A stretch of 35,221 nt of DNA from an uncultured Flavobacteriales bacterium. Lineage in GTDB: Bacteria; Bacteroidota; Bacteroidia; Flavobacteriales; UBA7312. Both the position numbers and the translations under genes were made by a program. A model generated the notes under the pieces. That model had not been told where the DNA came from. It ran no database searches and saw only the letters and a list, made by a program, of their open reading frames with translations. The stretch covers positions 1 to 35,221 of the forward strand of contig CAJWHN010000008.1 in the NCBI GenBank assembly GCA_913041085.1. Direction: 5' to 3'. Below, one piece after another: positions 4,498 to 28,222 of the stretch. Position 1 is the first letter of the stretch; every line of letters starts with the position of its first letter.

Positions 4498-4506
4498 GAA
4501 TTGAAA

Positions 4507-5049
4507 TTAAGCAATTAAAACTTCTTTTTTTTCGGTTGATGTTGTTTTCAAAACTCTGTCAACACAGATTTTAAACCATGGTGTAAAAGTATGAGGATTT
4601 TCGTTGATTTCCTGTATTAAGTCGTTTGAATTTATATATCTATAATCTCCAACTTCAGATGGGTTAGGCTTAGGTTTTTCATCAGAGAAGCCGATATAAA
4701 CGTGATCAAGTTCATTTTCAATAAGTCCATTATCAAACGAAGCACGATACAAGAAATTGAAAGCATAAAACACATCACATTCTATTCCCATTTCTTCTTT
4801 CAGTCGTCTTTCTGCAGCACGTTTTACTATTTCATTAATTCTAGGGTGGCTACATGCTGTATTGCTCCACAGAGCTGGTGTATGGTATTTGTGTGAGGCT
4901 CGTTTTTGGAGTAACATTTCTCCTTTGCTATTAAAAACAAAAACAGATATAGCACGATGTAATAGCCCTTTTTGATGTGCTTCTAATTTACCTATTTTAC
5001 CAATAGAGTTGTCATTTTTATCTACCAGTATAACTTGTTCTTCCATCAT
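4507..5049 (-). CDS. idi: Isopentenyl-diphosphate delta-isomerase, type I
   Basis: LLHRAISVFVFNSKGEMLLQKRASHKYHTPALWSNTACSHPR; Nudix-fold IDI signature. Confidence 0.95.
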   Translation of the reverse strand: MMEEQVILVDKNDNSIGKIGKLEAHQKGLLHRAISVFVFNSKGEMLLQKRASHKYHTPALWSNTACSHPRINEIVKRAAERRLKEEMGIECDVFYAFNFLYRASFDNGLIENELDHVYIGFSDEKPKPNPSEVGDYRYINSNDLIQEINENPHTFTPWFKICVDRVLKTTSTEKKEVLIA

Positions 5050-5509
5050 TTAATGTTTTGAAAATTGGTATTATAAATTGTTGTAGTTCTTCTGAACTTG
5101 TAAAAATGTTATTCTTAATAAATTGTCTGTCCTCCTCCGTATTGAGTTTGTAATCTAAAATAGCAGGTGTGCCGTCTTGTACACAAAAACGTAAAAATCT
5201 TAGTTCAATATCTTTAGGGTATTGGCTAATCACCTTCTCTAATTGTTCTTTACCTTCTCCAAACAACTTAAGTTTATCAAAAGGATTTAAAGAAAATTTA
5301 CTCTGAAGTAAAATGGCGATAGCGTGGTATGAAAAATTCTTATAATCGCTTTCAATTGAGCTATTTTTTGTCAGTTCATACAGTTTGTTAGCCTTATCTT
5401 CTTCAAATGAGGCTTCTATGTACAATTCTCTAAGCTCCGAAAGATTCAGCTCTTGTGCTTGACTATTAGCTACAGAGAACAATAAGGATATGATAATCCA
5501 AAATCTCAT
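5018..5509 (-). CDS. Hypothetical exported protein within carotenoid operon
   Basis: 163 aa with signal peptide; sits between crtB and idi on the same strand, overlapping both neighbours. Confidence 0.7.
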   Translation of the reverse strand: MRFWIIISLLFSVANSQAQELNLSELRELYIEASFEEDKANKLYELTKNSSIESDYKNFSYHAIAILLQSKFSLNPFDKLKLFGEGKEQLEKVISQYPKDIELRFLRFCVQDGTPAILDYKLNTEEDRQFIKNNIFTSSEELQQFIIPIFKTLNDGRTSYTGR

Positions 5510-6345
5510 ATCAAATTAAATTGATTTTTGACCATAGATTGTAGCATCAAACTTATTTTATTAGAATTAGGAATTCTGATACGCTCTTGTAAAATTCTTG
5601 AAGACGGTAAGGATTTAATCTTACGGAATAAATTGTAATAATAGATATAAGCCAAATAGACCCCACCTCTAGAACTCAATGGTAGTTTTTTAATTCCAAC
5701 AAGAGCTTCTTCGAAATCAATTTCTATATCTTCTTCTATTTTTTGTTTATCTTCTTCTGAGAAGTTTACCATATTAACTCCTGGAAAATAGGTTCTTCCA
5801 AGGTAAGAGAAGTCGCTGTTAGCGTCTCTAAGAAAATTAACTTTTTGGAAAGCCGAACCTAAACTCATAGCACTAGGTTTAAGAGCTTCATACTGTTCCT
5901 CATTACCCTCAACAAAGACTTTTAAGCACATTAAACCAACTACTTCTGCTGAACCTAAAATGTATTTATTGTATTTGTCGGTATCATAGGTTTGCAATTC
6001 ATCCAAATCCATTTCCATACTATCTAAGAAAGTATTGATAAGTTCCCATTCAATATTGTAATCGTGTACTACTTTTTGGAAACTATTTAAGATAGGGTTC
6101 AAACTAATCTTAGATTCAATAGCATCTATAGTATCTTCCTTGAATTTGTGAAATAAACGGTTTTTGTCGTAGTCGTGAAAGGTATCTACTATTTCGTCAG
6201 CAAAACGCACAAAGCCATATATGCCATAAATAGGGGCATGTAATCTTTTGTCTAGGGCTTTGATGCCAAAGCTAAAGCTTGTACTATAAGCTATTGTTGT
6301 CAGCTTACTACATTTGTCAGAGACATTATCAAAAATATACTTCAT
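5506..6345 (-). CDS. crtB: Phytoene synthase
   Basis: YGFVRFADEIVDTF; LRDANSDFSYLGRTYFP (DxxxD motifs). Confidence 0.95.
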   Translation of the reverse strand: MKYIFDNVSDKCSKLTTIAYSTSFSFGIKALDKRLHAPIYGIYGFVRFADEIVDTFHDYDKNRLFHKFKEDTIDAIESKISLNPILNSFQKVVHDYNIEWELINTFLDSMEMDLDELQTYDTDKYNKYILGSAEVVGLMCLKVFVEGNEEQYEALKPSAMSLGSAFQKVNFLRDANSDFSYLGRTYFPGVNMVNFSEEDKQKIEEDIEIDFEEALVGIKKLPLSSRGGVYLAYIYYYNLFRKIKSLPSSRILQERIRIPNSNKISLMLQSMVKNQFNLI

Positions 6346-6347
6346 AA

Positions 6348-7820
6348 TTAGTTAAGGTTGGATTCTACAATGTGTTTTGCAACGACTTGCCCTGAAATAA
6401 TAGAAGGGGGCACGCCAGGTCCAGGCACTGTCAATTGACCTGTGTAGAATAGGTTATTTATTTTCTTGTTAATGATTTTAGGTTTAAAATTTGCTGTTTG
6501 AAGAAGTGTATTTGCTAAACCGTAAGCATTGCCTTTGTAAGCGTTGTAGTCGTTTACGAAATCGTTAACACAATAACTTCTTTTATACTCAATATGTTCT
6601 CTAATTGTCTGTCCTGTATAGTTTTCAAGACGCTTAAGCATTATGTCAAAATATTTTTCTCTGACACTTTCACTGTCTTTAAGCCCTGGTGCGATAGGCA
6701 TCAAAAAGAAGATATTTTCTTTACCTTCTGGAGCTACATTTGGATCTGTTTTTGAAGGACAACAAACGTAAAATAGGGGTTTGTTTGGCCACTTTGGATC
6801 AGTATAAATTTCATTGGTGTGTTGCTCAATATCTTCATCAAAAAATAAATTGTGATGAATAAGTTTATTGAGTTTTCTGTTTACACCAACATAAAACAAC
6901 AAGCTAGAAGGTGAGAAGGTTCTTTTTTGCCAGTAGCTATCGTTGTAGTTTCTGTATTTTGGTGGCAGTAATTTGCTGTCAACGTGGTTGTAATCTGCTG
7001 AACCGACTACAATATCCGTTTCAAATGTTCTTTTGTCTGTGACGATTGATTGGATAGTTTTATCTTCAATATTGACGGATTGTACAGCTTCATTGGTATG
7101 AAATTCAACACCTTGTTCTGTACAAATTTCTTTGAAAGCATCAATAACTTTTCCAAAACCTCCCATTGGGTAGAAAGTACCTTTTTTAATGCCTGAATAA
7201 GTCATTAGACTATATAAGGCTGGAGTTTGGCTAGGTGCAGTTCCTAAAAATAGTACTGGAAATTCCAACAACGATTTTAAATATGGATTTTTAAAATACT
7301 TAGCTACATGCTTTCTATAAGAAGTAAATACTTGTAGCTTAAATACATTAGTAAACAACTCAGGCTTACACACCTCTGAAAGAGATAGGCCAGGTTCGTA
7401 AACCAATTGGTTGATGCCGAAGTCATATTTAAATTCGGCTTCTTTCATGAATTCTTCTAACTTTTTAGATGAACCTTTTTCAAAATTCTCGAACATTTCA
7501 CAAACCTCTGACCAGTCAGAAGATAGTTTCATAGTTTTGTCTTGTTCGAAGATGATTTGAAAACCAGGATCTAATTGAATGAGCTCAAAGTAGTCACTTG
7601 CTTTTTTGCCAAATTGAGCAAAAAATTTATCGAATACATCTGCCATCCAATACCAGCTTGGCCCCATATCAAATGTGTAGCCTTCAGCTTCAAATTGTCT
7701 AGCACGACCACCGATACTTGTGTTTTTTTCAAAGACACTAACTTGATGTCCTTCTTTAGCAAGAAAAGCAGCAGTGCTTAATCCTGAAAAACCACTTCCT
7801 ATGACTGAAATTTTGCTCAT
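6348..7820 (-). CDS. crtI: Phytoene desaturase
   Basis: GSGFSGLSTAAFLAKEGHQVSVFEKN (dinucleotide fold), C-terminal YTGQLTVPGPGVPPSIISGQVVA. Confidence 0.95.
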   Translation of the reverse strand: MSKISVIGSGFSGLSTAAFLAKEGHQVSVFEKNTSIGGRARQFEAEGYTFDMGPSWYWMADVFDKFFAQFGKKASDYFELIQLDPGFQIIFEQDKTMKLSSDWSEVCEMFENFEKGSSKKLEEFMKEAEFKYDFGINQLVYEPGLSLSEVCKPELFTNVFKLQVFTSYRKHVAKYFKNPYLKSLLEFPVLFLGTAPSQTPALYSLMTYSGIKKGTFYPMGGFGKVIDAFKEICTEQGVEFHTNEAVQSVNIEDKTIQSIVTDKRTFETDIVVGSADYNHVDSKLLPPKYRNYNDSYWQKRTFSPSSLLFYVGVNRKLNKLIHHNLFFDEDIEQHTNEIYTDPKWPNKPLFYVCCPSKTDPNVAPEGKENIFFLMPIAPGLKDSESVREKYFDIMLKRLENYTGQTIREHIEYKRSYCVNDFVNDYNAYKGNAYGLANTLLQTANFKPKIINKKINNLFYTGQLTVPGPGVPPSIISGQVVAKHIVESNLN

Positions 7821-7828
7821 TTGTAGTC

Positions 7829-8521
7829 TTATGATTTTACGAATTCATAAAATTCATTTCTTGTTTTATTGGACTTAATGAATTCTCCAGTTAATTTGGA
7901 GGTTTTCATAGATGTGCCTTGATGTCCTACACCTCTACATTGTACGCAGTTGTGCGAGGCCTCAATCATAACTGCCACACCTTTGTTATTCTCGACAATT
8001 TTATTGATAGCATCGTGGATTCTAACTGTAAGATTTTCTTGAATAGCACCTCTACGTGCATAATGTTCAACAATTCTATTCAGCTTACTTAAGCCAATAA
8101 TTTCTTGGTTGATTTGAGGAATATATGCTATGTGTGCTTTGCCCATAATGGTTTGATGGTGGTGTGAACACATAGATATAATAGGAATATTACCCTCAAA
8201 GATGATACCGTCATATTCGTAATTAGGAAAAGTTGTAATTTTAGGAAAAGCATTGTAACGCCCTGCCCACAAGTCATTGACATAAGCTTTAGCAACTCGT
8301 TTTGGAGTTTCCATAGAATTGGGGTCGTTTTTCCAATCGCAACCCAAAGCATCTAAAAACTCACCAAACTTAACGGCTGCTTTGTCAATCATTTCAAGCT
8401 TTTCTTCTTCGGTTAAAGCACCGTTGATATTTATGCCATCAGCGTAGCCTATGTTTCTAAGCTCAGGATTTAACTCTATTATTTGAGTTGATGAGCCATT
8501 TATAATTTTGTTATTATCCAT
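7829..8521 (-). CDS. folE: GTP cyclohydrolase I
   Basis: SMCSHHHQTIMGKAHIAYIP...GLSKLNRIVEHYARR...SHNCVQCRGV. Confidence 0.95.
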   Translation of the reverse strand: MDNNKIINGSSTQIIELNPELRNIGYADGININGALTEEEKLEMIDKAAVKFGEFLDALGCDWKNDPNSMETPKRVAKAYVNDLWAGRYNAFPKITTFPNYEYDGIIFEGNIPIISMCSHHHQTIMGKAHIAYIPQINQEIIGLSKLNRIVEHYARRGAIQENLTVRIHDAINKIVENNKGVAVMIEASHNCVQCRGVGHQGTSMKTSKLTGEFIKSNKTRNEFYEFVKS

Positions 8522-8930
8522 AATATTCTACATAGTTGTTTTCTGTTTCATACAATTTTACGCTGTACAGATTGTTGCCTGTAGCTTGTATGTCTCTTTC
8601 TAATTCTTCATAAATCTTTATGGAGATATTTTCAGCAGTAGTTATAGTATCTTTCATAAAATCAACCTCAAGGTTTAAGTTTTTGTGGTCCATTTTGTCA
8701 ACTATTCTGTTTTTGATAATATCGCTCAATATTTTTAAGTCTATAACATAACCTGTGTCGGGGTCAACAGTCCCTTCAACAGTTACAAATAAGGTATAGT
8801 TATGTCCGTGCCAATTTTTATTAGCACACTTTCCAAATATTTGCTCATTTTTTTCGTCAGACCAGTTTGGATTGAACAAACGATGGGCAGCATTGAATCT
8901 TTCTCTACGGATAACTTGTACGGTTTTCAT
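8514..8930 (-). CDS. 6-pyruvoyl-tetrahydropterin synthase (animal-type PTPS)
   Basis: Start placed at Met12 of the listed ORF (ATG 8930), because the upstream part overlaps the operator. FGKCANKNWHGHNYTLFVTVEG...DHKNLNLEV...LYETENNYVEYYG. Confidence 0.85.
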   Translation of the reverse strand: MKTVQVIRRERFNAAHRLFNPNWSDEKNEQIFGKCANKNWHGHNYTLFVTVEGTVDPDTGYVIDLKILSDIIKNRIVDKMDHKNLNLEVDFMKDTITTAENISIKIYEELERDIQATGNNLYSVKLYETENNYVEYYG

Positions 8931-8931
8931 T

Positions 8932-8963
8932 TTGTATAAACTTACGAGGCTAAAATTATACAA
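8932..8963. promoter_or_regulatory. Operator-like inverted repeat, site 1: TTGTATAA-N16-TTATACAA in the divergent PTPS / SDR promoter
   Basis: Half-sites 8932-8939 and 8956-8963 (extend to TTTTGTATAA/TTATACAAAA, 8930-8965). Same sequence and spacing at two other loci in the window. Confidence 0.8.
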
Positions 8964-8970
8964 AAATGCT

Positions 8971-8978
8971 TAGCTTTG
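8971..8978 (+). promoter_or_regulatory. -7 box TAGCTTTG for the SDR gene
   Basis: TAnnTTTG match, 7 bp after the right operator half-site and 10 bp before the ATG. Confidence 0.5.
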
Positions 8979-8988
8979 CAAAAAAAAG

Positions 8989-9654
8989 ATGAAAATATTA
9001 TTAATTGGTTCTTCCAGCGACATCGCTCGCTATCTAGTAGAAAACACAAGTTCTGAGTTTGAATTTATCGAACTAACTTCAACACCAACCTTAGCCAATC
9101 AACACCAAATTGATGTTCAAAATGAGGAAAGCTACCCTCAAATTGATGGCGAAATCAATGGAATAGTCTATTTTCCTGGCTCAATAAACCTTAGACCTTT
9201 TTCAAGTTTGAAGCTGTCTGATTTTCAGACGGATTATGAAATTAATGTATTGGGTTTGATAAAAACATTGAAACATTATCATAAACAATTGGCTTCGGAT
9301 TCATCGGTTGTTCTTATTAGTTCAGTTGCAGCATCAGTTGGTATGCCTTATCATGCTTCTATTTCGATGTGCAAGTCGGCAATTGAAGGGCTTTGTCGTT
9401 CTCTTGCTGCCGAGTGGTCGCCTAAGGTTAGAGTTAATTGCATAGCACCATCTGTTGTACAAACTAAGCTGTCTTCTCGTTTGTTTAGAACCGATGCTCA
9501 GGTGGAGCAAATGAATGCCCGTCACCCTTTACAAAAGGTCGGTCAGCCCAAAAATATATCAGACGCCATTTCTTTCTTATTGTCTGATAAATCTTCTTGG
9601 ATTACGGGACAGACTTTGCACATCGATGGTGGACTTTCTAGCTTAAAAAAATAA
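8989..9654 (+). CDS. Short-chain dehydrogenase/reductase
   Basis: LLIGSSSDIARYL, VVLISSVAAS, RVNCIAPSVVQT, ITGQTLHIDGG; active-site Tyr region is atypical (see findings). Confidence 0.85.
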   Translation: MKILLIGSSSDIARYLVENTSSEFEFIELTSTPTLANQHQIDVQNEESYPQIDGEINGIVYFPGSINLRPFSSLKLSDFQTDYEINVLGLIKTLKHYHKQLASDSSVVLISSVAASVGMPYHASISMCKSAIEGLCRSLAAEWSPKVRVNCIAPSVVQTKLSSRLFRTDAQVEQMNARHPLQKVGQPKNISDAISFLLSDKSSWITGQTLHIDGGLSSLKK

Positions 9655-9656
9655 AT

Positions 9657-11732
9657 ATGTTTTCATTCATTTGGCGGTTTAAATACCTGCTTTCCATTGT
9701 CTGCTTAATATTATTTGCCTTTTGTTTTAAGCAACTGCTCAATGCTAATATTTATTTTGATTCTGAAAGGATTATAAATGAATTGGAAGCTGCCAATGTG
9801 GATATTAATATCTTAGACGATAACAATTTAGTATTCTTTGGACTTTCTTTTGAGGACAGTTTAAGCTATCAAGATATGTTAGATGTTACGGCTTTTCATA
9901 AATCCTTGAAAAAGTCAGCCTATGTAAAGCGTGTTTTTAGTCTTGTAAATGACCGTCAAATTATAAATACGGGCTTGTTTCCAATTTCCAAAAAAGTATT
10001 GAAAGTTAGTGATAAAGAATCCTACATAAAGTCTATTAAAAAAATAGATGCTAATGGAAATAACTTCATATCGTCTGATGGAAAGAAGTTACTTTTCTTA
10101 GTAGAAAATGCGTCTGGTCTTAGCAAAGATGATAGTCGAATCTTTATCAACTCTTTGTATGAAACGGATTTGAACGAAAACATGACTGAAGTGTTTGTTA
10201 GCGGCCGTTCGCCTAGTGAATTATATTTTGAGAAGAAAGTCATTCAAGAATTCATAATACTTACCTTAGTTAGTGGGTTTTTATGCTTTTTGTTTTTATT
10301 GTTCATTACAAAAAACCTGAAGTTAGTTGTGCTAACTGTCTTTAGTGTCATCGCCAGTATAGTTGTGAGTCTAGGGCTTTCTCAAGTTTTGTTTGGAGGT
10401 ATAGAATTGGTAATGATAATTACACCAGCAATCTTATTTATTGTTTGTCTTTCTGACATAATGCATTTTACCAATAAGCAATCCAATGTTACCTCTTCCA
10501 AAGGAGCATTCTTTCTTATGCGAATGGATACGGTTGGTAAGGCTGTTGCTTTAACTTCTATAACTACGGCCATGAGCTTTTTAACATTTTTGGTTAATGA
10601 TATAGTACCTATTCTTCGTTTTGGCTTAATCACATCAGTAGGCGTTGTTTTCACACTTTTTATTGCCATCTTAGTTTATGCCATAAGTGTAGATAAGAAC
10701 TTTAACGAATCGAGCCCAGTGAAAGTAATTCAACAATTTACAGATGCTATCATAAGCTTTTTGAAAAATGGGCAAAGGTCTAAGTCTTTTCATTTATTTA
10801 TGGCGATTCTAATTGCCGTTGGTTTGTATGGGGTGGCTAATGTTCAAATAGATAATTATCTGACTGATGAAATCAACAAAAAGTCAAAGATTTATCAGCA
10901 GACAGCTTTTTTTGACAGTCATTTTGGAGGTATTAAGCCCATCACTATATTTTTAGATAAAGAAAATGTGAGTGATTTAGAGGTGTTGTCACAAGTCGAA
11001 AAATCCATTAAAGGATTGGGTTTTGTTGTTGATTTTTCTAATACTAATACGACCTCCATGATGTTAGAGCAACTGGGTTTCGCTGACCAAGATTTAGTCA
11101 ACAAATACTTTTATATTTGCCGCTCTAGCGATGAAGGTTCGCTAGCAACTTTAGAAAAATTAAAGTCTTTAGAGAATGAATATACGTCAAGTGGTCTAGA
11201 ATTTAATTATTCTGGTGCTGGATATTTGTTTGATATTCTAGGTAATGACCTCACTAGACAGCTTATTTTCGGCTTACTTATTGCTATTTTTTCTATTGGC
11301 TTAGTGTTCTTTTTATTGAATAAGTTTGACTTCAATTATTTCATTATTGCTATTGTCCCTAATTTAACTCCTATCGTTGTTTGTGTAGGCTTATTATATT
11401 TGAATGGCTTTTACTTTAGTCTGTCAAATTCCTTCATTTTTACTATAGTTTTTGGATTAATAATTGATGACTCTATTCATCTTATTAGTGCCTATGCCAA
11501 TGCTAGAAAAAGAAAAATATCAAAGCTAGAATCTTTGGATTTAGTCGTTAGTAAAACAGGTGACGCTATTCTTAAAACTACTTTGATTGTTATTATCTGT
11601 CTTTTTCCTCTTTCCTTTTCGGAGTTCAAGTCTGTTTCTCAGTTATCGGTCATTACGATATTGAGTGCTTTTATTGCTGTCTTTTTCGATTTGGTTTATT
11701 TACCCTTAATTATCAAAAGACTAACTAAGTAG
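9657..11732 (+). CDS. RND/MMPL-family transporter
   Basis: 691 aa, two multi-TM blocks, GLIIDDSIHLI and CLSDIMHF motifs typical of RND/Patched-like permeases; 2 nt after SDR. Confidence 0.8.
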   Translation: MFSFIWRFKYLLSIVCLILFAFCFKQLLNANIYFDSERIINELEAANVDINILDDNNLVFFGLSFEDSLSYQDMLDVTAFHKSLKKSAYVKRVFSLVNDRQIINTGLFPISKKVLKVSDKESYIKSIKKIDANGNNFISSDGKKLLFLVENASGLSKDDSRIFINSLYETDLNENMTEVFVSGRSPSELYFEKKVIQEFIILTLVSGFLCFLFLLFITKNLKLVVLTVFSVIASIVVSLGLSQVLFGGIELVMIITPAILFIVCLSDIMHFTNKQSNVTSSKGAFFLMRMDTVGKAVALTSITTAMSFLTFLVNDIVPILRFGLITSVGVVFTLFIAILVYAISVDKNFNESSPVKVIQQFTDAIISFLKNGQRSKSFHLFMAILIAVGLYGVANVQIDNYLTDEINKKSKIYQQTAFFDSHFGGIKPITIFLDKENVSDLEVLSQVEKSIKGLGFVVDFSNTNTTSMMLEQLGFADQDLVNKYFYICRSSDEGSLATLEKLKSLENEYTSSGLEFNYSGAGYLFDILGNDLTRQLIFGLLIAIFSIGLVFFLLNKFDFNYFIIAIVPNLTPIVVCVGLLYLNGFYFSLSNSFIFTIVFGLIIDDSIHLISAYANARKRKISKLESLDLVVSKTGDAILKTTLIVIICLFPLSFSEFKSVSQLSVITILSAFIAVFFDLVYLPLIIKRLTK

Positions 11733-12092
11733 CCATAAGTCGTTAAGCTCGGCTTTGAAAAAAGACCATAAGTTGTCGGGTAGATTATCTTTTTCAAAAA
11801 AATCGAAGTGGTCATTCTCGTGATTGAGTAAAATGTCACTGCCTTTAGTTTTCGACTGATAAAACCAATAATCATCATTATCAAAAGTGCAGTGTTTTAC
11901 GAATTGAGGGTTATCTAACTCTATGTTAGTTTCTTCTTTGGTTTCTCTTATTACAGCTAGATTTGATTTTTCGTTGGGCTTTATTTTGCCAATAACTGGT
12001 GTCCATATACCTGGGTAAAAGGGATTGGTTAAAGTCCTTTTTAATAGAAGTACTTTATTATCTTTGAATATGAAGTGGACACAATATTTCAT
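11721..12092 (-). CDS. Nudix hydrolase
   Basis: Nudix box GKIKPNEKSNLAVIRETKEETNI. Start placed at ATG 12092 (ATGA overlap with upstream stop). Confidence 0.85.
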   Translation of the reverse strand: MKYCVHFIFKDNKVLLLKRTLTNPFYPGIWTPVIGKIKPNEKSNLAVIRETKEETNIELDNPQFVKHCTFDNDDYWFYQSKTKGSDILLNHENDHFDFFEKDNLPDNLWSFFKAELNDLWLLS

Positions 12093-12883
12093 TTTTGAAC
12101 TTTTGGGCAATACCAACTCTTTCTCTGGTCAGAGGTTGTGCTACTTATAACTTCATTGCCATATTCATCTACTTTCTTGCCATACACTTTAAGTTCAAAT
12201 TTTGAGACGTGAAAAGGATTTTTGAAATCTTTGAGTTCGGCACCGCCACTTACATAACTGCTTTGCATGATGTCTTTAGTAGCTAGTAGTAGTTCTTTGA
12301 GTTTTTTAGAAGACAGTTTGCCCCATTGTTTTTCAGGATGTAATTTGGCGGCATACAAGACTTCAGATTTGATGTAGTTGCCAACACCGGGAAAGAAGCG
12401 TTGGTCCATGAGTGTTGAACAAACAGACTTACTTTGACTGACTTTTTGTTTGAGGTATTTCAGGTGCTCGTCGAAGTCATAATCTTCATTAAGAAAGTCA
12501 TAAGTGTTGAAATGCTTTTGTTGAATTTGTTCTTTATTGAGAATTCTCATTTTTCCAAACTTTCTGACATCTCTAAAGAACAATTCTCTGTCTTCTGCGC
12601 TAACTTTAAAATGACAATGTTTTATATTATTCTCGCTCCAACCACCAGTCATACCGAGGTGGAAATTAAAATATTGTCCATTGGAAAGGGGTAAAAAAAT
12701 ATTCTTTCCTATGGTGAATGTGGCTTGAAAATCTTTTGGGTGATATTGCTTTACACATTCAAATACGTCTGCATACTTTTTTTCATAATATTCAGTCAGT
12801 ATTTCAAATGTGATATTTTTTGCTCCTTCAAAAAACGAATTATAATAGGAAGATGCTATTTTAACCTCGGGTCCTTCAGGCAT
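12089..12883 (-). CDS. Fpg/Nei-family DNA glycosylase
   Basis: MPEGPEVK N-terminus, FFPGVGNYIKSEVLY (H2TH region); C-terminal finger lacks the Cys4 set. Confidence 0.85.
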   Translation of the reverse strand: MPEGPEVKIASSYYNSFFEGAKNITFEILTEYYEKKYADVFECVKQYHPKDFQATFTIGKNIFLPLSNGQYFNFHLGMTGGWSENNIKHCHFKVSAEDRELFFRDVRKFGKMRILNKEQIQQKHFNTYDFLNEDYDFDEHLKYLKQKVSQSKSVCSTLMDQRFFPGVGNYIKSEVLYAAKLHPEKQWGKLSSKKLKELLLATKDIMQSSYVSGGAELKDFKNPFHVSKFELKVYGKKVDEYGNEVISSTTSDQRKSWYCPKVQK

Positions 12884-13437
12884 TATTTTAAAATAACAAT
12901 AACTTCGTTTCTTCTATTCAAAACTTTGTAAGGCGAGTCGTAAACTAACAATTCAAATTCATAGGTATATGCGATATCGTATTTTTCAAGTGTATCAATT
13001 AATTCTTGTTTTTTACGCTTTACCTTAGTGCTGTTGGAGTATCCTGAAAAGCGAATAGCAGCTACTTTTCTTGAATCCATTTTTATTATGTCTATCTCAT
13101 TGGAGTTAGGTGTAGGCAAACTCTCCATTTCATAGCGTTCTGGCATAAGGAACATCATTTCTTTATTCTTTGAGGATAAACGCATATTAACAGGTGAAGT
13201 CATACCAATTTGTTCGTTTTTATCATTTCCACCAAATATATAATTGGCAAGTACTCTAAATTGAGAGTTATTGCCTGATTGCGAAAAGTGACTGGCATAT
13301 ATAAGTGCGGGATACTGCCTTATTTCGACAGAATCTATAGTTCTAATGATATTGTAGTTTTCAGTTTTACTCACGCTAAAAGAAAATAGGGCATATACAG
13401 TAAGTATAGCTATGGTTAAAAATAATAATTTTTTCAT
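12883..13437 (-). CDS. SOUL-family heme-binding protein
   Basis: VEIRQYPALIYAS..., ANYIFGGN...IGMTSPVNM, IRFSGY..., all typical of the SOUL family. Confidence 0.85.
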   Translation of the reverse strand: MKKLLFLTIAILTVYALFSFSVSKTENYNIIRTIDSVEIRQYPALIYASHFSQSGNNSQFRVLANYIFGGNDKNEQIGMTSPVNMRLSSKNKEMMFLMPERYEMESLPTPNSNEIDIIKMDSRKVAAIRFSGYSNSTKVKRKKQELIDTLEKYDIAYTYEFELLVYDSPYKVLNRRNEVIVILK

Positions 13438-13964
13438 TATTTCAGTTTTTCAATAATTTGCTCATCTAGTGGATTTACGCCACTTTTGAAACAAGCAATT
13501 AACTCTCCGTCACCGTTTATCAAAAATTTATTGAAGTTCCATGACACCTCAAAATTATCTAATCCGTTTTGCTCTTTGTTAGTCAGCCAAGCATAAAGAG
13601 GGTGCTGATTTTTTCCTTTGACATTTACTTTTTCCGTCATAGGAAATGTAATATCAAACTTACTTTCACAAAATGTTTTTATCTCTTTTTCGCTTCTTGG
13701 CTCTTGTGACCCAAACTGATTGCAAGGGACGCCTAGCACTACCAGTTGATTAGCGTATTTCTGACTTAGCTTTTGCAAATCGGCATACTGTGAAGTATAG
13801 CCACAATAGGAGGCAACGTTTACTATTAGAATGTATTTGCCTTTGAAATCTGACATCTTGATTTCTTTATTTTCTATAGATGGTATAGATAATTCGTAGA
13901 AAGATTGAGAATAAGTTGAGTTCATAATAAATACTGAAAATATAAGTAGAATATAGGGTCTCAT
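13437..13964 (-). CDS. Glutathione peroxidase family (Cys type)
   Basis: LIVNVASYCGYTSQYADLQKL, VLGVPCNQFGSQEP, FEVSWNFNKFLI. Confidence 0.9.
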   Translation of the reverse strand: MRPYILLIFSVFIMNSTYSQSFYELSIPSIENKEIKMSDFKGKYILIVNVASYCGYTSQYADLQKLSQKYANQLVVLGVPCNQFGSQEPRSEKEIKTFCESKFDITFPMTEKVNVKGKNQHPLYAWLTNKEQNGLDNFEVSWNFNKFLINGDGELIACFKSGVNPLDEQIIEKLK

Positions 13965-13983
13965 ATTATTGTTATGTTAAAAA

Positions 13984-14011
13984 AAGTGAGAGAGTTTTCA
14001 CTCTCTCACTT
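13984..14011 (-). terminator. Intrinsic terminator for the fasciclin/cupredoxin gene
   Basis: 12-bp perfect stem AAGTGAGAGAGT / ACTCTCTCACTT with TTTC loop, followed on the minus strand by a T-run. Confidence 0.85.
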
Positions 14012-14039
14012 AAAAATCAAATTAACCTTGATTTACAAT

Positions 14040-15377
14040 TTACTTGCGTAGATTGTATCTTTTTATACTTGTTCCGTTAGAATAGATGTCAACTAAAATC
14101 TTCTCTTTTGAATCACTATCGACTAATTCACCTAATAGGTTTATGGTGTATAAATATTCTACATCTTTTTCATTTAAAAACGTATTTATTGATGTAGGCT
14201 CATCATCTGCTACTAATACAGCATTAATGACATGTACTACTCCATTGTTAGCTACAATATCAGGCTGAATGACTGTTGACATATCAATCATTACGCTACC
14301 AGCATCTATACTGACAACTAATACATCATCGTTTAATGTTGGTACTTGCATGCCATTAGATAAGTCTGTTGATAGTACATTTCCAGAGTGAACATGGTGT
14401 TTCAATATTTCAGTTAAAAGAGGAATATCAGCAAGTAAGTCGTCTAATGCTCCTGCGGGCAATGCATCAAAAGCATCGTCTGTTGGTGCAAATACTGTAA
14501 ATGGACCATCACCTGAAAGTGTTTCGCCTAATCCTGCGGCATCAATTGCTGCTTCCAAAGTAGTGTGAATTGGAGAAACCTCAATAATACTGTAAACGGT
14601 TGTGTCCTCTTGCCCAAAATCGGGTAATAATACTTTGTCAATAACGTGTACCACTCCATTACTAGCTGTTAAATCAGCTTGTGTAACTGTAGCAAGATCA
14701 ATCATTACAGTCATACCATCAATCGATACAGTAAGTTCAGTCTCATTAAGTGTTGGTACCATCATACCATCAGATAAGTCTGTTGATAACACATTGCCAG
14801 AGTGAACGTGATTCAATAATAAATCTGTTAATTGCTCGGTATTAGCTAAGATTAAATCTAAAGCACCAGCAGGTAAGCCATCGAATGCGTCGTCAGATGG
14901 TGCGAATACAGTAAAAGGACCATCACCTGAAAGTGTGCCATCTAGTTCAGCAGCTAGTACAGCTTCCTCTAAGATTGTATGTGCTGGCGAATTAGCAATA
15001 ATATCAACTACTGAGCCAAGCCCAGAGTTAACAATAATAGTACCAACCATACCTTGAAGTGCATGATTGCCAACAGAGCAATCGTAGTTATAAGTACCTT
15101 CTATATTAAACACGTGCGTGTATATAGTAGCTCCAACAGTACTAGTTGAAGGAGAATCAAAACTTTCTGGGTTGTCAAAGCTATTACCAGTTATAGAATT
15201 AATGTTACCGTTAACATCGTGTGTGCCGCCATCATTAATCCAAACAACTGTATCGCCAACATTAATTGTTAGTTCACTTGGAGTGTAAAAGAACATTCCA
15301 GAATTAACCTGATGTATAGTAGCAAACGCTGTTAATGAAATTAGGGATAAAAATAGAGCGCTTAGTAAATATTTCAT
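14040..15377 (-). CDS. Secreted cupredoxin (plastocyanin-like) + two fasciclin (FAS1) domains + T9SS-like C-terminal domain
   Basis: Copper-ligand pattern GGTHDV...YDCSVGNHALQGM; two repeats of LSGDGPFTVFAP(S/T)DDAFD(G/A)LPAGALD; C-terminal LYTINLLGELVDSDSKEKILVDIYSNGTSIKRYNLRK. Confidence 0.85.
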   Translation of the reverse strand: MKYLLSALFLSLISLTAFATIHQVNSGMFFYTPSELTINVGDTVVWINDGGTHDVNGNINSITGNSFDNPESFDSPSTSTVGATIYTHVFNIEGTYNYDCSVGNHALQGMVGTIIVNSGLGSVVDIIANSPAHTILEEAVLAAELDGTLSGDGPFTVFAPSDDAFDGLPAGALDLILANTEQLTDLLLNHVHSGNVLSTDLSDGMMVPTLNETELTVSIDGMTVMIDLATVTQADLTASNGVVHVIDKVLLPDFGQEDTTVYSIIEVSPIHTTLEAAIDAAGLGETLSGDGPFTVFAPTDDAFDALPAGALDDLLADIPLLTEILKHHVHSGNVLSTDLSNGMQVPTLNDDVLVVSIDAGSVMIDMSTVIQPDIVANNGVVHVINAVLVADDEPTSINTFLNEKDVEYLYTINLLGELVDSDSKEKILVDIYSNGTSIKRYNLRK

Positions 15378-15404
15378 AATTTTTTTTGTTTAGTTAAGAT
15401 GGTA

Positions 15405-15412
15405 CAAATATA
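15405..15412 (-). promoter_or_regulatory. -7 box TATATTTG for the fasciclin/cupredoxin gene
   Basis: TAnnTTTG on minus strand, 28 nt before the start; operator site 2 lies over its -33 region. Confidence 0.5.
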
Positions 15413-15426
15413 TAACTTTTTTAAAT

Positions 15427-15458
15427 TTGTATAAAATTTTTGTCACAATGTTATACAA
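15427..15458. promoter_or_regulatory. Operator-like inverted repeat, site 2: TTGTATAA-N16-TTATACAA in the regulator's own divergent promoter
   Basis: Half-sites 15427-15434 and 15451-15458; identical spacing to sites 1 and 3. Confidence 0.8.
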
Positions 15459-15464
15459 AAAGCA

Positions 15465-15472
15465 TATATTTG
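15465..15472 (+). promoter_or_regulatory. -7 box TATATTTG for the regulator operon
   Basis: TAnnTTTG, 7 bp after the right operator half-site. Confidence 0.5.
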
Positions 15473-15522
15473 CATAATAATTTATGACTATAGTGTCTAC
15501 AAAACTTTTAATAATTGGTACA

Positions 15523-15687
15523 ATGCCAAGAAAGAAGAAGCAAAGAATTTCAATAGAAGAAATTAAAAAAAGAACTCCAAAAATTATCTTTTACACAGAT
15601 AAAATGAAAATCAACCTAAAGTCGATGAGTAGTCTAGATTTTTGGTTTAATAAATATCCAAACGGTAAATATATAGTTAATGACTAA
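15523..15687 (+). CDS. Small basic protein of unknown function, translationally coupled to the CarH-like regulator
   Basis: MPRKKKQRISIEEIKKRTPKIIFYTDKMKINLKSMSSLDFWFNKYPNGKYIVND; 8-nt overlap with the next start. An upstream ATG at 15484 is an alternative start. Confidence 0.6.
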   Translation: MPRKKKQRISIEEIKKRTPKIIFYTDKMKINLKSMSSLDFWFNKYPNGKYIVND

Positions 15688-16561
15688 GTATAGTATAGAC
15701 CAGTTTTCACAAATCACGGGTATTACAAAATTTGTGTTGAGGACCTGGGAAAACCGATACGGTTTTCTCAAGGCTCAACGTACTGACACAAAGATTCGCT
15801 TCTACACTGACGAGTTACTTGTTCGTGCTTTAAATTGTAATTACCTGTTAGAAAATGGGTATAAAATTTCGGCTATTTCTAAACTATCTCATGACGAAAT
15901 ATCAACTAAGGTAGACGAAATTAAAAACAGTGCTGAAGATAATTCGATAGAGTCCTACTACATTGCCAAGTTGATAAAGTCAGCTCTTGATTTTGATTCT
16001 AATTTATTCAATTCAACTTATGAGAAAGGTGTTCAGGAGTTGGGTATTCTTGAATTTTACAAGTCGGTATTATTAGTTGCCTTTTCTAAAATTGGGATTT
16101 TTTGGCTCACTAATAGAATTGCCCCTTCACAAGAGCATTTTTTATCGGAATTAGTAAAACAAAAAATTGGTGCAGCAGCCGATTCAGCTTCTAATGATGA
16201 AATTAAAAAGGACACGTGGCTTTTATTTTTGCCAGAAAATGAATTCCACGAAATTGGATTAATTTTTGCTAAGTTTTTATTAATCAAAAACGGATTTGAA
16301 GTGGTTTATTTAGGTGCTAATGTGCCTTATGGTTCTTTATTGCAATTAGCAGAGAAAAAACATATAGATAATGTATTGTTCTTTTCTGTTTCTAATACAT
16401 CGAAAAGCAATTTAGATTTTACCATTAATTATTTGAATAAATCATTTCCAAAGTCTAAACATTTTCTAGTTGCTAATAGTTTAGATATTAATTTCCTCAC
16501 AAAGGAACATGATATCACAATACTAGATAATCTAGATGATTTTGTTCAAATTATTTCATAG
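15680..16561 (+). CDS. MerR-type regulator with cobalamin-binding domain (CarH/LitR-like, putative B12 photoreceptor)
   Basis: MerR HTH (YSIDQFSQITGITKFVLRTWENRYGF...), Wx9EH motif (W-LTNRIAPSQ-EH), ExHxxG B12-binding motif (EFHEIG) followed by NGFEVVYLGANVP. Confidence 0.9.
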   Translation: MTKYSIDQFSQITGITKFVLRTWENRYGFLKAQRTDTKIRFYTDELLVRALNCNYLLENGYKISAISKLSHDEISTKVDEIKNSAEDNSIESYYIAKLIKSALDFDSNLFNSTYEKGVQELGILEFYKSVLLVAFSKIGIFWLTNRIAPSQEHFLSELVKQKIGAAADSASNDEIKKDTWLLFLPENEFHEIGLIFAKFLLIKNGFEVVYLGANVPYGSLLQLAEKKHIDNVLFFSVSNTSKSNLDFTINYLNKSFPKSKHFLVANSLDINFLTKEHDITILDNLDDFVQIIS

Positions 16562-16961
16562 AAATATTTCTACATTCAATAAACTTTCGAATAAATCTTT
16601 TGTGGCCTTTATTGTCTACAACATTTAATTTTATCGTGTAATTATTTATTTGGACCTCTAGTAATCCATCGTTATTCAAAAAGCTGATTTGATTGTAGCG
16701 TGACATTAAAACATATTCCTCATTTTTATGTCTAAAATATACCGCTACTCCTTTGGCTCGTAGCTCAAATGTACAATAAACTAAATCTGTATATTCCGCA
16801 AAATCTATCTCAAAATTCTTTGGTCTTATTTTTAATAATAGGTATTTGGGAGAACCATAAAAACCATTTTTGATTTTTTGAACTAAGGTGTAGGGATTGC
16901 CGCAAATAGCGAATAAGTTTTCTCGGATTTTTTTCTGATTTTGACTTGTTTTAAATAGCAT
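16551..16961 (-). CDS. Conserved-looking hypothetical protein, divergent from the photolyase operon
   Basis: Start placed at ATG 16961 (MLFKTSQNQKK...); longer ORF start would run through the operator. Confidence 0.6.
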   Translation of the reverse strand: MLFKTSQNQKKIRENLFAICGNPYTLVQKIKNGFYGSPKYLLLKIRPKNFEIDFAEYTDLVYCTFELRAKGVAVYFRHKNEEYVLMSRYNQISFLNNDGLLEVQINNYTIKLNVVDNKGHKRFIRKFIECRNISMK

Positions 16962-16971
16962 AGTTGTATAT

Positions 16972-17003
16972 TTGTATAACAAAATTAATAAAAAGTTATA
17001 CAA
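16972..17003. promoter_or_regulatory. Operator-like inverted repeat, site 3: TTGTATAA-N16-TTATACAA in the divergent promoter of the photolyase/carotenoid operon
   Basis: Half-sites 16972-16979 and 16996-17003 (perfect to 9 bp: TTGTATAAC/GTTATACAA); extra partial half-site TTGTATA at 16964-16970. Confidence 0.8.
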
Positions 17004-17044: not shown

Positions 17045-17506
17045 ATGGCACACTACCAACTTCGAAAAGAACAGTTTCTAAAAACAGATATTGACACTAT
17101 TTGGGATTTTGCATCATCTCCAGCCAATCTGAAGGAGATTACTCCCGATTATATGTTATTTGATATTACATCAAAAGGCCTGCCAGAAAAGATGTATCCT
17201 GGAATGATTATTTCTTACAAAGTTTCCCCTTTGTTAAATATTAAGATGAATTGGGTAACAGAAATAACACAGGTAAAAGACAAACATTTTTTTATTGATG
17301 AGCAACGTTTAGGTCCTTACAAAATGTGGCATCATCAGCACTTTTTCGAAGAAAAAGATGGTGGTGTATTAATGACTGATATTGTCACTTATATTCCTCC
17401 CTTTGGTATACTTGGTGATATCGCTAATGTTGTGCTTATCAAAAAACAACTAAAAGGCATTTTTGACTATAGATTTAAAGTAATGGATGAAAAATTTAAT
17501 CAATAA
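17045..17506 (+). CDS. SRPBCC-superfamily ligand-binding protein
   Basis: MAHYQLRKEQFLKTDIDTIWDFASSPANLKEITPDYM...; START/SRPBCC-like pattern. Confidence 0.7.
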   Translation: MAHYQLRKEQFLKTDIDTIWDFASSPANLKEITPDYMLFDITSKGLPEKMYPGMIISYKVSPLLNIKMNWVTEITQVKDKHFFIDEQRLGPYKMWHHQHFFEEKDGGVLMTDIVTYIPPFGILGDIANVVLIKKQLKGIFDYRFKVMDEKFNQ

Positions 17507-17508
17507 AT

Positions 17509-17988
17509 ATGAAAAGACCCTGGAATATAATTAGCCCACCAGTTTATAGTTTATTGACTTATGACGAACAAGGGAAAGTCAATATGAATATATGTACTTA
17601 TGTTTCGGCAGTAAGTATGAAGCCTAAAATGTATTCTATAGCCATAGATTACACCACCAAAACCTATAAAAATTTAGAAAAATCATCTAAGGTGGTTCTT
17701 CAATTGTTAAGTGCTTCTAACCTCAAGGTAATAAGGAAGTTAGGCAAAATTAGTGGTAAGCTTTTTGATAAAGACCGTTACCTCAACTCATACAATTTAC
17801 TTCAATCTTGGAAAGATTACAATGTGCTAAAAGATACTTGTGCATTAATTGAATTAGAAAAAAAATCGGTGGTCAATAATCACGGAGATCATGCTATTTT
17901 TTTCTTTGACGTTACTGGTTTTAAGACCATTTCTGAAAAAAATGTCCTTTCATTTCAGGACTTAGTAGATAACAGAATAATACTATGA
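17509..17988 (+). CDS. Flavin reductase-like (FMN split-barrel) protein
   Basis: NIISPPVYSLLTYDEQGKVNMNICTYVSAVSMKPKMYSIAI...; split-barrel flavin reductase pattern. Confidence 0.7.
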   Translation: MKRPWNIISPPVYSLLTYDEQGKVNMNICTYVSAVSMKPKMYSIAIDYTTKTYKNLEKSSKVVLQLLSASNLKVIRKLGKISGKLFDKDRYLNSYNLLQSWKDYNVLKDTCALIELEKKSVVNNHGDHAIFFFDVTGFKTISEKNVLSFQDLVDNRIIL

Positions 17989-17991
17989 TAT

Positions 17992-18624
17992 ATGCACCTT
18001 ACAAAAGAGCAGATACAACAAACTTCACGAATCAAGCGTCTCAATATAATTAACTCTATTACTGGAGTTAAGCCTGCAAATTTAATTGGTAGTATTTCTG
18101 AGAATGGGCATAGTAACTTAGCTATTTTTAGCTCTATAGTTCATTTGGGAAGCAATCCTGCTCTTTTGGGTTTTATCTTACGACCTCAGCACGAGGTTAG
18201 GAGAGATACATATGATAATATTATGCAAACGAAATATTATACCATTAATCATATTTCCTCTGACTATGTTGAAAACGCCCATTATACATCGGCTAAATTT
18301 GACAAGGAAGATTCAGAGTTTGAAAGGTGCAAGTTTACCGAAGAATATTTATTTGATTTCGATGCGCCTTTTATTAAAGAAAGTCGTGTTAAGATAGGAT
18401 TAAAGCTAGAAGAAATGTTACCTATCGAGCTGAATAAATGTGTAATGGTTATTGGTTCCATACAGCATTTATGGGTTGATGATGTGGCAGTCGAAGACGA
18501 TGGTCAAATCAATTTAGAATTGATAGATGATGTTGGAATAGGAGGTTTGAATAGTTACTATAAATTAAAGCGTATTGCTCAGTTTCCTTACGCAAGAGTA
18601 AATGAATTACCTGATTTTGAGTAG
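17992..18624 (+). CDS. Flavin reductase-like (FMN split-barrel) protein, second copy
   Basis: LNIINSITGVKPANLIGSISENGHSNLAIFSSIVHLGSNPALLGFILRPQHEVRRDTYDNI. Confidence 0.75.
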   Translation: MHLTKEQIQQTSRIKRLNIINSITGVKPANLIGSISENGHSNLAIFSSIVHLGSNPALLGFILRPQHEVRRDTYDNIMQTKYYTINHISSDYVENAHYTSAKFDKEDSEFERCKFTEEYLFDFDAPFIKESRVKIGLKLEEMLPIELNKCVMVIGSIQHLWVDDVAVEDDGQINLELIDDVGIGGLNSYYKLKRIAQFPYARVNELPDFE

Positions 18625-18627
18625 ACA

Positions 18628-18768
18628 ATGAGAAAGCCTCTGCCACATAAAAACTGTTTGGTTTGTCAGAAACCTTTTTCTTGGCGTAAAAAGTGGGAAT
18701 GGGTTTGGGAAGACGTAAAATATTGCAGCGAACGTTGCAGAATAAATAAAAATAACAAGAATGAATAG
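18628..18768 (+). CDS. DUF2256-like small zinc-ribbon protein (46 aa), photolyase-associated
   Basis: Read by eye (below ORF-track cutoff): [46 protein letters not shown]; CxxC...CxxxC; overlaps next start by 8 nt. Confidence 0.85.
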
Positions 18769-20248
18769 TGTAAATATAATTTTTCCTAATCAGCTTTTTA
18801 AGCACAGCGATTTATTGGATAATACTTATCCTGTATATCTCGTTGAGGAATATTTATTTTTTAATCACTATCAATTCCACAAGCAAAAATTAGCCTTTCA
18901 CAGAGCAAGTATGCAGTTTTATAAATCTTACCTTCAAGATTTGGGTAAGACGGTTCATTACATTTCGGCTACAGACTCTAATTCTGATACCCGTAGGCTT
19001 TTAGAAAAGTTAATTGGTGAGGGTATTCAAGAAGTTCATTTCATTAATCCCGTTGACAATTGGTTAGAAAAACGAATTTCAAATGCTACTAAAGATATCA
19101 AATGTGTCGTTTATGAAAGCCCTTATTTCATTAATCAGTCCGACGAGTATTCTGAATTTTTCAAAACAACTAAAAAGAAGTTTTTTCAAACCTCATTTTA
19201 TATTGAACAACGTAAAAAATTAGGTATTTTACTTGAGAAAAATGCTTCGCCAATAGGGGGCAAGTGGAGTTATGATGCAGAAAATAGAAAGAAATATCCA
19301 AAAGGTAAAACGTCACCCAAAATTACTAAACTTGAGTCCAATGATTTTTATATTGAGGCGGTAAGTTATGTCAAAAGTAATTTTTCTGATAACCCTGGGG
19401 AGTTGTCTCAGACTCCAATTTATCCCAATGATTATCAGCAATCTATTGAATGGCTCAATGATTTTTTAGACCAACGATTTCATGACTTTGGTGTTTATGA
19501 AGATGCTATCGTAGATTCAGAACATTTCCTTAATCACAGTGTTCTTACACCCATGTTAAACGTCGGTTTGCTGACACCCTTGCAAATTATTGATAGCGCA
19601 TTAGAATATGTTGCACAAAATGATATACCTTTAAATTCTTTGGAGGGATTCATACGACAAATCATTGGTTGGAGAGAGTTCATTAGAGGTATTTATGTAG
19701 CTAAAGGAACAGAAGAAAGAAATCGCAATTTTTTTCAGCACAAACGAAAAATACCACCCTCTTTTTATGATGGCACAACAGGCATTATTCCCATTGATAC
19801 GACCATACGTAAATTATTAAAAACAGGCTATGCTCATCATATTGAGCGACTAATGATTTTAGGTAATTTTATGTTATTATGCGAGTTTGACCCTGATGAA
19901 ATATACCGTTGGTTTATGGAGCTATTCATAGATGCCTACGATTGGGTAATGGTACCTAATGTATATGGCATGAGTCAATTTGCTGATGGTGGTCTAATGT
20001 CCACTAAGCCGTATATTAGTAGCAGTAACTACTTAAAAAAAATGAGTAATTACAAAAAGGCTCAATGGCAAGAAATATGGGACGCTTTGTATTGGCGTTT
20101 CATCGATAAGCATAGAGAAGTTTTTAATAAAAATATTAGAATGAAACTTATGGTTTCTATGTATGATAAAATGTTGACTGAAAAGAAAGAAAAATTCATC
20201 ATTATTGCAGACAATTATTTTAAGTCTTTAGACGTTGAACTCAATTAA
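18761..20248 (+). CDS. Cryptochrome/photolyase-related protein (PhrB/CryB/DPRP type), apparently without 4Fe-4S cysteines
   Basis: [74 protein letters not shown]; only two Cys in 495 aa. Confidence 0.9.
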
Positions 20249-20265
20249 AAAATAAATTACAATAC

Positions 20266-21513
20266 ATGGCTAGAATTATCTTCACAACAGTACTAATTGG
20301 TTTCATTTTAAGTCTTGACCTTTACGTATGGTCAGCTTTCAAAACACAACTCATTGAAAGACCATTCTTGAAATATGCGTTTTGGACAATTACTTTACTG
20401 ACTATAATTTTTATGTATTATCCAGCCATAAATACCAATATGACACTATATCCCAATTATATGGTTATTATTTTTGGCTTTATATTTACCATTATTGGTT
20501 CAAAGTTAGCTATGGTTCTTCCATTACTAATTGATGATTTATTACGCCTTTTCAAATACGTATATCAAGCTGTTTTTGTCCAAAAAAGTCTTTCCTTAGG
20601 AGGCCAGCCCATAAGCAGATTGGCCTTCTTAAAAAATACAGCTTTAGGTTTAGGAGCATTGACCTTCTCTAGCTTTGCTTACGGTATTCTTGTTGGTCGT
20701 TTCAATTTTAAAAAGCACTTTGTAGACTTAGCATTGAAGAATTTTCCAAAAGAGGCAAAACCGTTGAAAATTGTTCAAATATCAGATTTACATTTAGGAA
20801 GTTTTCAGAGAAAAGATAAGCTAATGGAAGCCGTTGAATTGATAAATGAAGAAAATCCAGATTTTATTTTTTTTACAGGAGATTTGGTAAACAACCATGC
20901 TTCAGAGGCTGCTCCTTTTGTAGAGGTTCTCAAAAAGCTCAAAGCTAGATATGGCAAATATGCAGTTTTAGGTAATCACGATTATGCCGACTATATTGGT
21001 TTGGATTTGAAGTCTGATGAAGGAAGGTCAAAGTGGCAAAGGAATTTTGATGAAATACAACAGCATTTTACTAATTCAGATTTTAACCTTTTACTGAATG
21101 AAAGCCGATTAATAAATGTTGATGGATTAGAAATAAATGTTGTTGGTGTAGAAAATTGGGGCGATGGTAGATTTTCAAAATATGGTGATTTAGAGAAAGC
21201 GATGCTATCTGTAAAAGAAGGATTACCAACTTTTTTACTCTCTCATGACCCCACCCATTGGACTAACAAAGTTTTACCATTCTCAAAGCATGTGGATTTG
21301 CAATTGGCTGGTCATACTCACGGCATGCAATTCGGGATAGAAATAGGTGGAATCAAGTGGAGTCCTTCTCAATGGAAATATAAATTTTGGGCTGGTCTTT
21401 ATCAAAACAAGGAGCAATACCTTTATGTTAATAGAGGTATAGGTCATTTGGGTTATCCAGGGCGAGTAGGTATTATGCCTGAAATTACAGTATTAAACGT
21501 TCAATCAACTTAA
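20266..21513 (+). CDS. Membrane-anchored calcineurin-like metallophosphoesterase (YkuE-like)
   Basis: ISDLHLGSF, FTGDLVNNH, VLGNHDYADY, LAGHTHGMQFG. Confidence 0.9.
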   Translation: MARIIFTTVLIGFILSLDLYVWSAFKTQLIERPFLKYAFWTITLLTIIFMYYPAINTNMTLYPNYMVIIFGFIFTIIGSKLAMVLPLLIDDLLRLFKYVYQAVFVQKSLSLGGQPISRLAFLKNTALGLGALTFSSFAYGILVGRFNFKKHFVDLALKNFPKEAKPLKIVQISDLHLGSFQRKDKLMEAVELINEENPDFIFFTGDLVNNHASEAAPFVEVLKKLKARYGKYAVLGNHDYADYIGLDLKSDEGRSKWQRNFDEIQQHFTNSDFNLLLNESRLINVDGLEINVVGVENWGDGRFSKYGDLEKAMLSVKEGLPTFLLSHDPTHWTNKVLPFSKHVDLQLAGHTHGMQFGIEIGGIKWSPSQWKYKFWAGLYQNKEQYLYVNRGIGHLGYPGRVGIMPEITVLNVQST

Positions 21514-21523
21514 TAAACTATAT

Positions 21524-23905: not shown

Positions 23906-23906
23906 G

Positions 23907-28220: not shown

Positions 28221-28222
28221 TA

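Follow-up and report, generated by a model that had tools for sequence, protein, structure and literature searches.

A 35,221-nucleotide stretch of contig CAJWHN010000008.1 from an uncultured Flavobacteriales bacterium (GenBank assembly GCA_913041085.1), hereafter the window, carries three copies of the inverted repeat TTGTATAA-N16-TTATACAA together with a gene for a CarH-type regulator, and sequence comparison indicates that these copies are very probably docking sites of the B12 light sensor CarH. The explanation that best accounts for the observations jointly, and in which we place high confidence, is that the adjacent class-I CarH uses the repeats as its operators, from which it would repress in the dark and be released by light, with a geometry found across the order, two arm codes, and proteorhodopsin among the targets. 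The coordinates, the 24-bp offset between the arms, and the location between divergent genes given in the original prediction were all borne out, each copy matching with zero mismatches:

8932 to 8963, no strand assigned: operator 1, TTGTATAA-N16-TTATACAA, between PTPS (minus strand) and SDR (plus strand)
15427 to 15458, no strand assigned: operator 2, between fasciclin (minus strand) and small open reading frame (ORF)-carH (plus strand), with predicted carH autoregulation
16972 to 17003, no strand assigned: operator 3, between a hypothetical gene (minus strand) and the SRPBCC operon (plus strand)

Allowing up to three mismatches, the pattern occurs five times in the window against 1.48 expected, a count reached in 0 of 100 shuffles. 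The genome-wide motif search proposed in the original prediction, covering 1.46 Mb on 93 contigs (95% complete), returned three copies with zero or one mismatch, all in this cluster, and four copies with two mismatches. One of the latter (C6:15986-16017) precedes a photolyase-fold gene (PF03441) and has an exact counterpart, with an almost identical spacer, ahead of the orthologous gene in genome G003, while another (C45:9074-9105) precedes the only rhodopsin gene of the genome (PF01036). Judged by sequence, both look like decayed family members and, since they lie upstream of a photolyase-fold gene and a proteorhodopsin gene on other contigs, the regulon extends outside the window and is not limited to the ~25 kb originally proposed. 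A symmetrised count over different sites gave a full arm of nine bases, tTTGTATAA/TTATACAAa, and a centre without conservation.

Comparison of 398 genomes at the level of the order (families labelled f1, f3, and so on), with the reversed pattern as control, revealed 47 exact sites in 25 genomes against two control matches. All 25 genomes belong to families f1, f7, f11, and f15 (86 genomes), and none of the 312 genomes outside these families contains an exact site. Every f1 genome (10/10) harbors one to four exact sites. Alignment with related genomes, also suggested at the outset, showed that the arms are conserved in orthologous promoters while the spacers diverge: at operator 1 this is the case in seven f1 genomes (orthologue spacers ACTTACGAGGCTAAAA, ACTTGAGTTGTTAAAA, ACTTTCAGCGATAAAA, ACTTTCGTTGTTAAAA, and ATTTCAGAGGTTAAAA), operator 2 has zero or one mismatch in 7/7 f1 carH promoters, and operator 3 is exact in 6/6 f1 orthologues. 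Across the 28 carH promoters of the CarH clade to which the window belongs, the best site has zero to two mismatches in 24 and three mismatches in a further two.

The order contains a second CarH clade (31-37% identity), associated with TTGTTTAA-N16-TT(A/G)AACAA, in which the 24-bp offset is retained and the arms are different. This pattern was found in 108 of the 398 genomes, nearly all from families f3, f8, f4, f5, and f14, and its reversed control in 13. Within f3, this TAAACA-type site is present in 62/73 genomes with CarH and in 0/4 without (p 0.001); within f8, the counts are 37/64 and 0/12 (p 2e-4). The two arm types fall on opposite sides of one branch (support 100/100) when 48 CarH proteins are placed in a maximum-likelihood tree, and the recognition helices of the two clades read ITKFVLRTWENRY versus IKAHTIRIWEKRY. 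Both arm types contain TnnACA, as TATACA in the window and as TAAACA/TGAACA in the sister clade. When exact arm pairs were counted for all spacings and orientations, in loci picked for carH or rhodopsin and not for geometry, the inverted N16 arrangement made up 12/19 and 18/23 of the inverted pairs; direct-orientation pairs in the same loci were rare and showed no enrichment. Genes that recur next to sites in both clades include carH, crtI-crtB-idi-crtZ, PTPS/folE, fasciclin, SRPBCC, SDR(-RND), flavin reductase-like genes, and photolyases. The assignment of the sites as CarH operators, autoregulation included, is thus well supported by restriction to CarH lineages, co-variation of arm and clade, the TnnACA core, and recurrent target genes, and the inverted N16 geometry is very probably shared by CarH operators throughout Flavobacteriales, each of the two CarH clades having its own arm code.

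The exact TTGTATAA-N16-TTATACAA pattern also lies between litR/carH and crtI in Peribacillus simplex (L123) and Peribacillus muralis (L153), species of another phylum, one of which has a further copy of the TnnACA repeat, 11 bp away from the right arm. These sites were among the matches listed in a database-wide exact-pattern scan, in which the other listed non-Bacteroidota matches were mostly chance-like, and they indicate that the inverted N16 geometry is not confined to Bacteroidota.

The regulator is encoded directly downstream of operator 2, behind a short ORF that was confirmed as a real, family-conserved feature:

15523 to 15687, plus strand: basic ORF of 54 aa (MPRKKKQRISIEEIKKRTPK...), its stop overlapping the carH start, conserved in f1
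15680 to 16561, plus strand: carH, 293 aa, with a MerR DNA-binding and a cobalamin-binding domain

No Pfam family was found for the 54-aa ORF. The CarH protein has an N-terminal MerR winged-helix domain (PF13411, E 4e-14) and a B12-binding_2 domain (PF02607, score over cut-off), and it combines a four-helix bundle with a Rossmann cobalamin domain. The light-sensing motif Wx9EH is present as FWLTNRIAPSQEHF, with W142, E152, and H153 invariant in 12 relatives, the cobalamin motif ExHxxG as EFHEIG, with H190 nearly invariant in the same set, and the GxxW motif is retained. The best solved relative by sequence is Thermus CarH (1e-12). A Foldseek search with the AlphaFold (AF2) model (pLDDT 88.7) returned Thermus CarH/LitR chains as its top 26 matches (TMt ~0.83 for the cobalamin-binding domain; 5c8d, E 4e-14). 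By family, the product is a bona fide, ordinary class-I CarH with predicted photochemistry. The genome also encodes a cobalamin adenosyltransferase (PF01923, E 5.5e-60) and a methylmalonyl-CoA mutase, suggesting that adenosylcobalamin (AdoCbl) can be formed from cobalamin.

A short CarH-like protein of ~219 aa was observed in f11 (L037/L326, L329, L332, L333; genera g30, g64, and g41). The MerR domain and the helical bundle are retained, whereas the EH motif has lost its His and the Rossmann cobalamin domain is gone; the protein is apparently B12-blind, as is Pseudomonas class-II LitR. Its promoter in L326 carries a perfect inverted repeat with a 24-bp offset and the arms TTGCATAA/TTATGCAA.

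Several observations weigh against the sites being CarH operators as described above. The only mode of DNA binding by class-I CarH that has been worked out in detail relies on direct 11-bp repeats in tandem; no such repeat is conserved here, and the spacer centre of the inverted repeats carries little information. The overall odds ratio of site versus CarH presence is large and derives from counts uncorrected for relatedness; within f11 alone the association of the exact site with CarH presence is not significant (8/26 vs 2/26, p = 0.08). CarH was undetected in seven genomes with an exact TATACA-type site, three of them f1 genomes that are 54-74% complete, and 11 f3 genomes with CarH lack an exact site. 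Some of the -7 boxes that overlap operators arise partly out of the arm letters themselves.

Seven site-bearing genomes with CarH undetected, CarH-bearing genomes that lack exact sites, and several sites upstream of unrelated genes would fit a different conserved light or stress regulator that binds the sites, with CarH merely among its targets. We regard this as very unlikely: the arm sequence switches together with the CarH clade, CarH-less genomes of f3 and f8 never have the site, the TnnACA core is identical to the CarH repeat core, and most genomes carry the site in their carH promoter, the two Peribacillus species between litR and crtI. MliR, a MerR-like protein of Bizionia, was considered as a prior description and rejected, as it lacks an effector domain and is an iron regulator.

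A second alternative concerns the mode of action, which bears on the position of the operators within the promoters, measured from the Bacteroidetes -7 box TANNTTTG:

8971 to 8978, plus strand: -7 box of SDR, TAGCTTTG, 7 bp past operator 1, conserved in 7 genomes
15465 to 15472, plus strand: -7 box of small ORF-carH, TATATTTG, 6 bp past operator 2
15405 to 15412, minus strand: -7 box of fasciclin, TATATTTG, 14 bp past operator 2
16967 to 16974, plus strand: -7 box of SRPBCC, TATATTTG, overlapping the left arm of operator 3, conserved in 6/6 genomes
16980 to 16987, minus strand: -7 box of the hypothetical gene, TAATTTTG, within the spacer of operator 3, conserved in 5/6

The original prediction placed the right arm shortly before a -7 box at all three sites. 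This is correct for SDR and carH, where the box lies 6-7 bp past the right arm, and incorrect for site 3, where the TTTATTTG box to the right of the arm is unconserved and the conserved TATATTTG overlaps the left arm. More generally, the distance from the end of the operator to a -7 box downstream of it is 5-8 bp in the SDR, f1 carH, and f1 rhodopsin promoters and 14-15 bp in those of fasciclin and of some carH and rhodopsin genes; in other promoters the operator overlaps the -7 box or sits downstream over the start. Relative to the operator, the -7 box was found at -37, -27, -16, -5, +5 to +8, and +14/15.

That CarH binds the sites as a light- or dark-dependent MerR-style activator, distorting the -33/-7 spacer, draws on the commonness of activation among MerR relatives and on the SDR, carH, and f1 rhodopsin promoters, in which the -33/-7 spacer contains one arm, 5-7 bp ahead of the -7 box. 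We likewise regard this alternative as very unlikely, since a fixed spacer distortion disallows operators that overlap the -7 box or start, or that end 14-15 bp upstream, and since characterised CarH/LitR proteins are repressors (PMC8156234, PMC9758184). The excess variation of -7 box positions rules out a fixed MerR-activator geometry, while steric occlusion tolerates such variation, which favours repression. Taken together, the varied positions and the repressor role of characterised homologues point to repression in the dark that light relieves as the most probable mode.

A chance repeat or a structural or mobile element (hairpin, terminator, transposon end), to which the AT-rich genome and the ability of the two arms to pair with one another might point, deserves practically no credence given three exact copies where practically none are expected, the 47-to-2 ratio of exact sites to control matches, and orthologues that keep the arms around unrelated spacers, the genome-wide and reversed-pattern controls ruling out chance.

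Under the preferred reading of CarH as a dark repressor, the bound protein would lie across the -33 element, the -7 box, or the start in every divergent promoter, and would repress the carotenoid, photolyase, SRPBCC/flavin-reductase, fasciclin, and pterin genes as well as carH; light would cleave AdoCbl, CarH would leave the DNA, and the genes would be switched on. We infer binding, its dependence on darkness and AdoCbl, repression instead of activation, and the oligomeric state, with tetrameric AdoCbl binding in the dark presumed from homologues.

CarH of Thermus and Bacillus binds an 11-bp repeat with a TnnACA core, and known class-I operators consist of three or four tandem direct repeats nnnnTnnACAn (PMC8156234, PMC9304148). 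The system described here resembles class-I CarH/LitR of Thermus thermophilus, Bacillus megaterium, and Myxococcus/Cystobacter in domain architecture, Wx9EH, ExHxxG, fold, carotenoid gene neighbours, TnnACA core, and a site lying over promoter elements of carH and the carotenoid genes. It differs from them in having inverted arms with a 24-bp offset and an unconserved centre instead of tandem direct repeats, and in targets that include proteorhodopsin, fasciclin, and SRPBCC/flavin reductases. Whereas the Thermus complex involves same-direction repeats 11 bp apart, the half-sites here are inverted and 24 bp apart, an arrangement that the tetramer-on-direct-repeats mode does not directly explain. 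A hidden middle half-site that would restore the direct-repeat mode was rejected on the low information of the spacer and the lack of enrichment of direct pairs. Judged by sequence pattern, the operator is a new form of CarH site, an inverted pair with a 24-bp offset.

The nearest described operator is that of Pseudomonas class-II LitR (PplR1/PmlR2), with the consensus T(G/A)TACA-N12-TGTA(C/T)A, 18-bp spacing, everted asymmetric variants, and a regulon of phrB, folE, and cryB (PMC9758184). Class-II LitR lacks the B12 Rossmann domain, the light signal in P. mendocina coming from a short LOV protein (PMC9758184). The two systems share a widely spaced pair of TGTACA/TATACA-type hexamers and overlapping target sets; here, however, the offset is 24 bp and not 18, the arms are inverted, and the regulator has the Rossmann domain. 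Flavobacterial genome papers record a MerR gene ahead of crtI and give no site. The inverted repeat is likewise a feature shared with canonical MerR operators, on which MerR-type winged-helix domains sit. Canonical MerR operators are compact palindromes that either fit inside a single promoter spacer or overlap it, whereas the site here spans 32 bp and is placed variably.

Tandem operators (L081, L096, L102, L104-L108, L306-L323) have offsets of 32-35, 39-46, 53-54, and 63-64 bp, with one at 107 bp. Two oligomers might bind them cooperatively, or one tetramer might occupy all four arms; strict helical phasing was rejected, the offsets being suggestive of it yet not strict.

The genes that lie under the three operators in the window are as follows:

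4054 to 8930, minus strand: PTPS-folE-crtI-crtB-hyp-idi-crtZ operon, operator 1, the PTPS ATG at 8930 being one base from the arm
8989 to 11732, plus strand: SDR and RND/MMPL genes, operator 1
14040 to 15377, minus strand: fasciclin/plastocyanin-like gene, operator 2, with fasciclin behind the operator in both clades
13984 to 14011, minus strand: terminator-like hairpin after fasciclin, 12-bp stem
16551 to 16961, minus strand: hypothetical gene, operator 3, probable start ATG at 16961
17045 to 28918, plus strand: SRPBCC-FlavRed1-FlavRed2-DUF2256-photolyase-metallophosphatase-TonB-SDR-photolyase/cryptochrome-crtI2-carotenoid synthase-crtYcd, operator 3

The larger gap in the SRPBCC run is occupied by the 46-aa DUF2256 gene (18628-18768), between flavin reductase and photolyase, a gene missing from the original prediction. 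The statement that the regulon takes in nearly all genes between 4.05 and 28.9 kb was too strong: the terminator at 14011-13984 parts fasciclin from GPx-SOUL-mutM-nudix (11.7-14.0 kb), which are therefore probably outside, and the whole of 4-29 kb as regulon was rejected on this ground. In genome G007, GPx follows fasciclin downstream of the operator. The end of the regulon at 28.9 kb is plausible because the gap ahead of pfkA (29066) contains a separate TATATTTG box for that gene. The DPRP photolyase of the SRPBCC operon is relocated in G006 and G009, where it lies behind another copy of the operator. Site neighbours confined to single lineages are YceI, plastocyanin, PAS-UbiA, 2OG-Fe(II) oxygenase, and heme oxygenase and phytochrome-like genes. 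At L290 and L293 a TAAACA-type site lies upstream of two genes, one heme oxygenase-like and the other phytochrome-like, which from its position may be a case of one photoreceptor system controlling another.

A predicted target outside the window is the rhodopsin gene:

G000:C45:8304-8987: rhodopsin gene (L110), site at C45:9074-9105 with 2 mismatches

Pfam family membership, and not the pattern, served to collect rhodopsin genes (loci L254-L266 and L302-L325, with L265 left out), and 26 of 36 promoters, from both clades, have a site with two mismatches or fewer. In the clade of the window, such a site is present in 10 of 13 assessable promoters and one with three or fewer in 12, and the operator position is nearly constant in f1. 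In the other clade, 16 of 23 promoters have two mismatches or fewer, against 5/920 shuffles, with 10 of the 16 exact, and several carry two operators 44-46 bp apart. These data make it likely that, throughout Flavobacteriales, CarH directly represses proteorhodopsin in the dark via an operator whose inverted pair sets it apart from the direct-repeat operators so far reported for CarH, that light and B12 supply jointly set the expression of phototrophy, pigment, and DNA-repair genes, and that the clades swapped arm codes while geometry and regulon were kept. No paper linking CarH to proteorhodopsin in Bacteroidota was found in the open-access literature, and the novelty of the link is thus provisional.

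The inverted geometry adds to what is described for CarH, the published CarH-DNA structure not directly accounting for it, and two arm codes with a conserved geometry constitute a natural specificity swap for evolution studies. According to the searchable literature, the light induction of proteorhodopsin and photoprotection in marine flavobacteria has no named regulator, and CarH is a candidate. If this is true, proteorhodopsin, pigment, and repair genes would be tied to vitamin B12, which many marine bacteria import by necessity.

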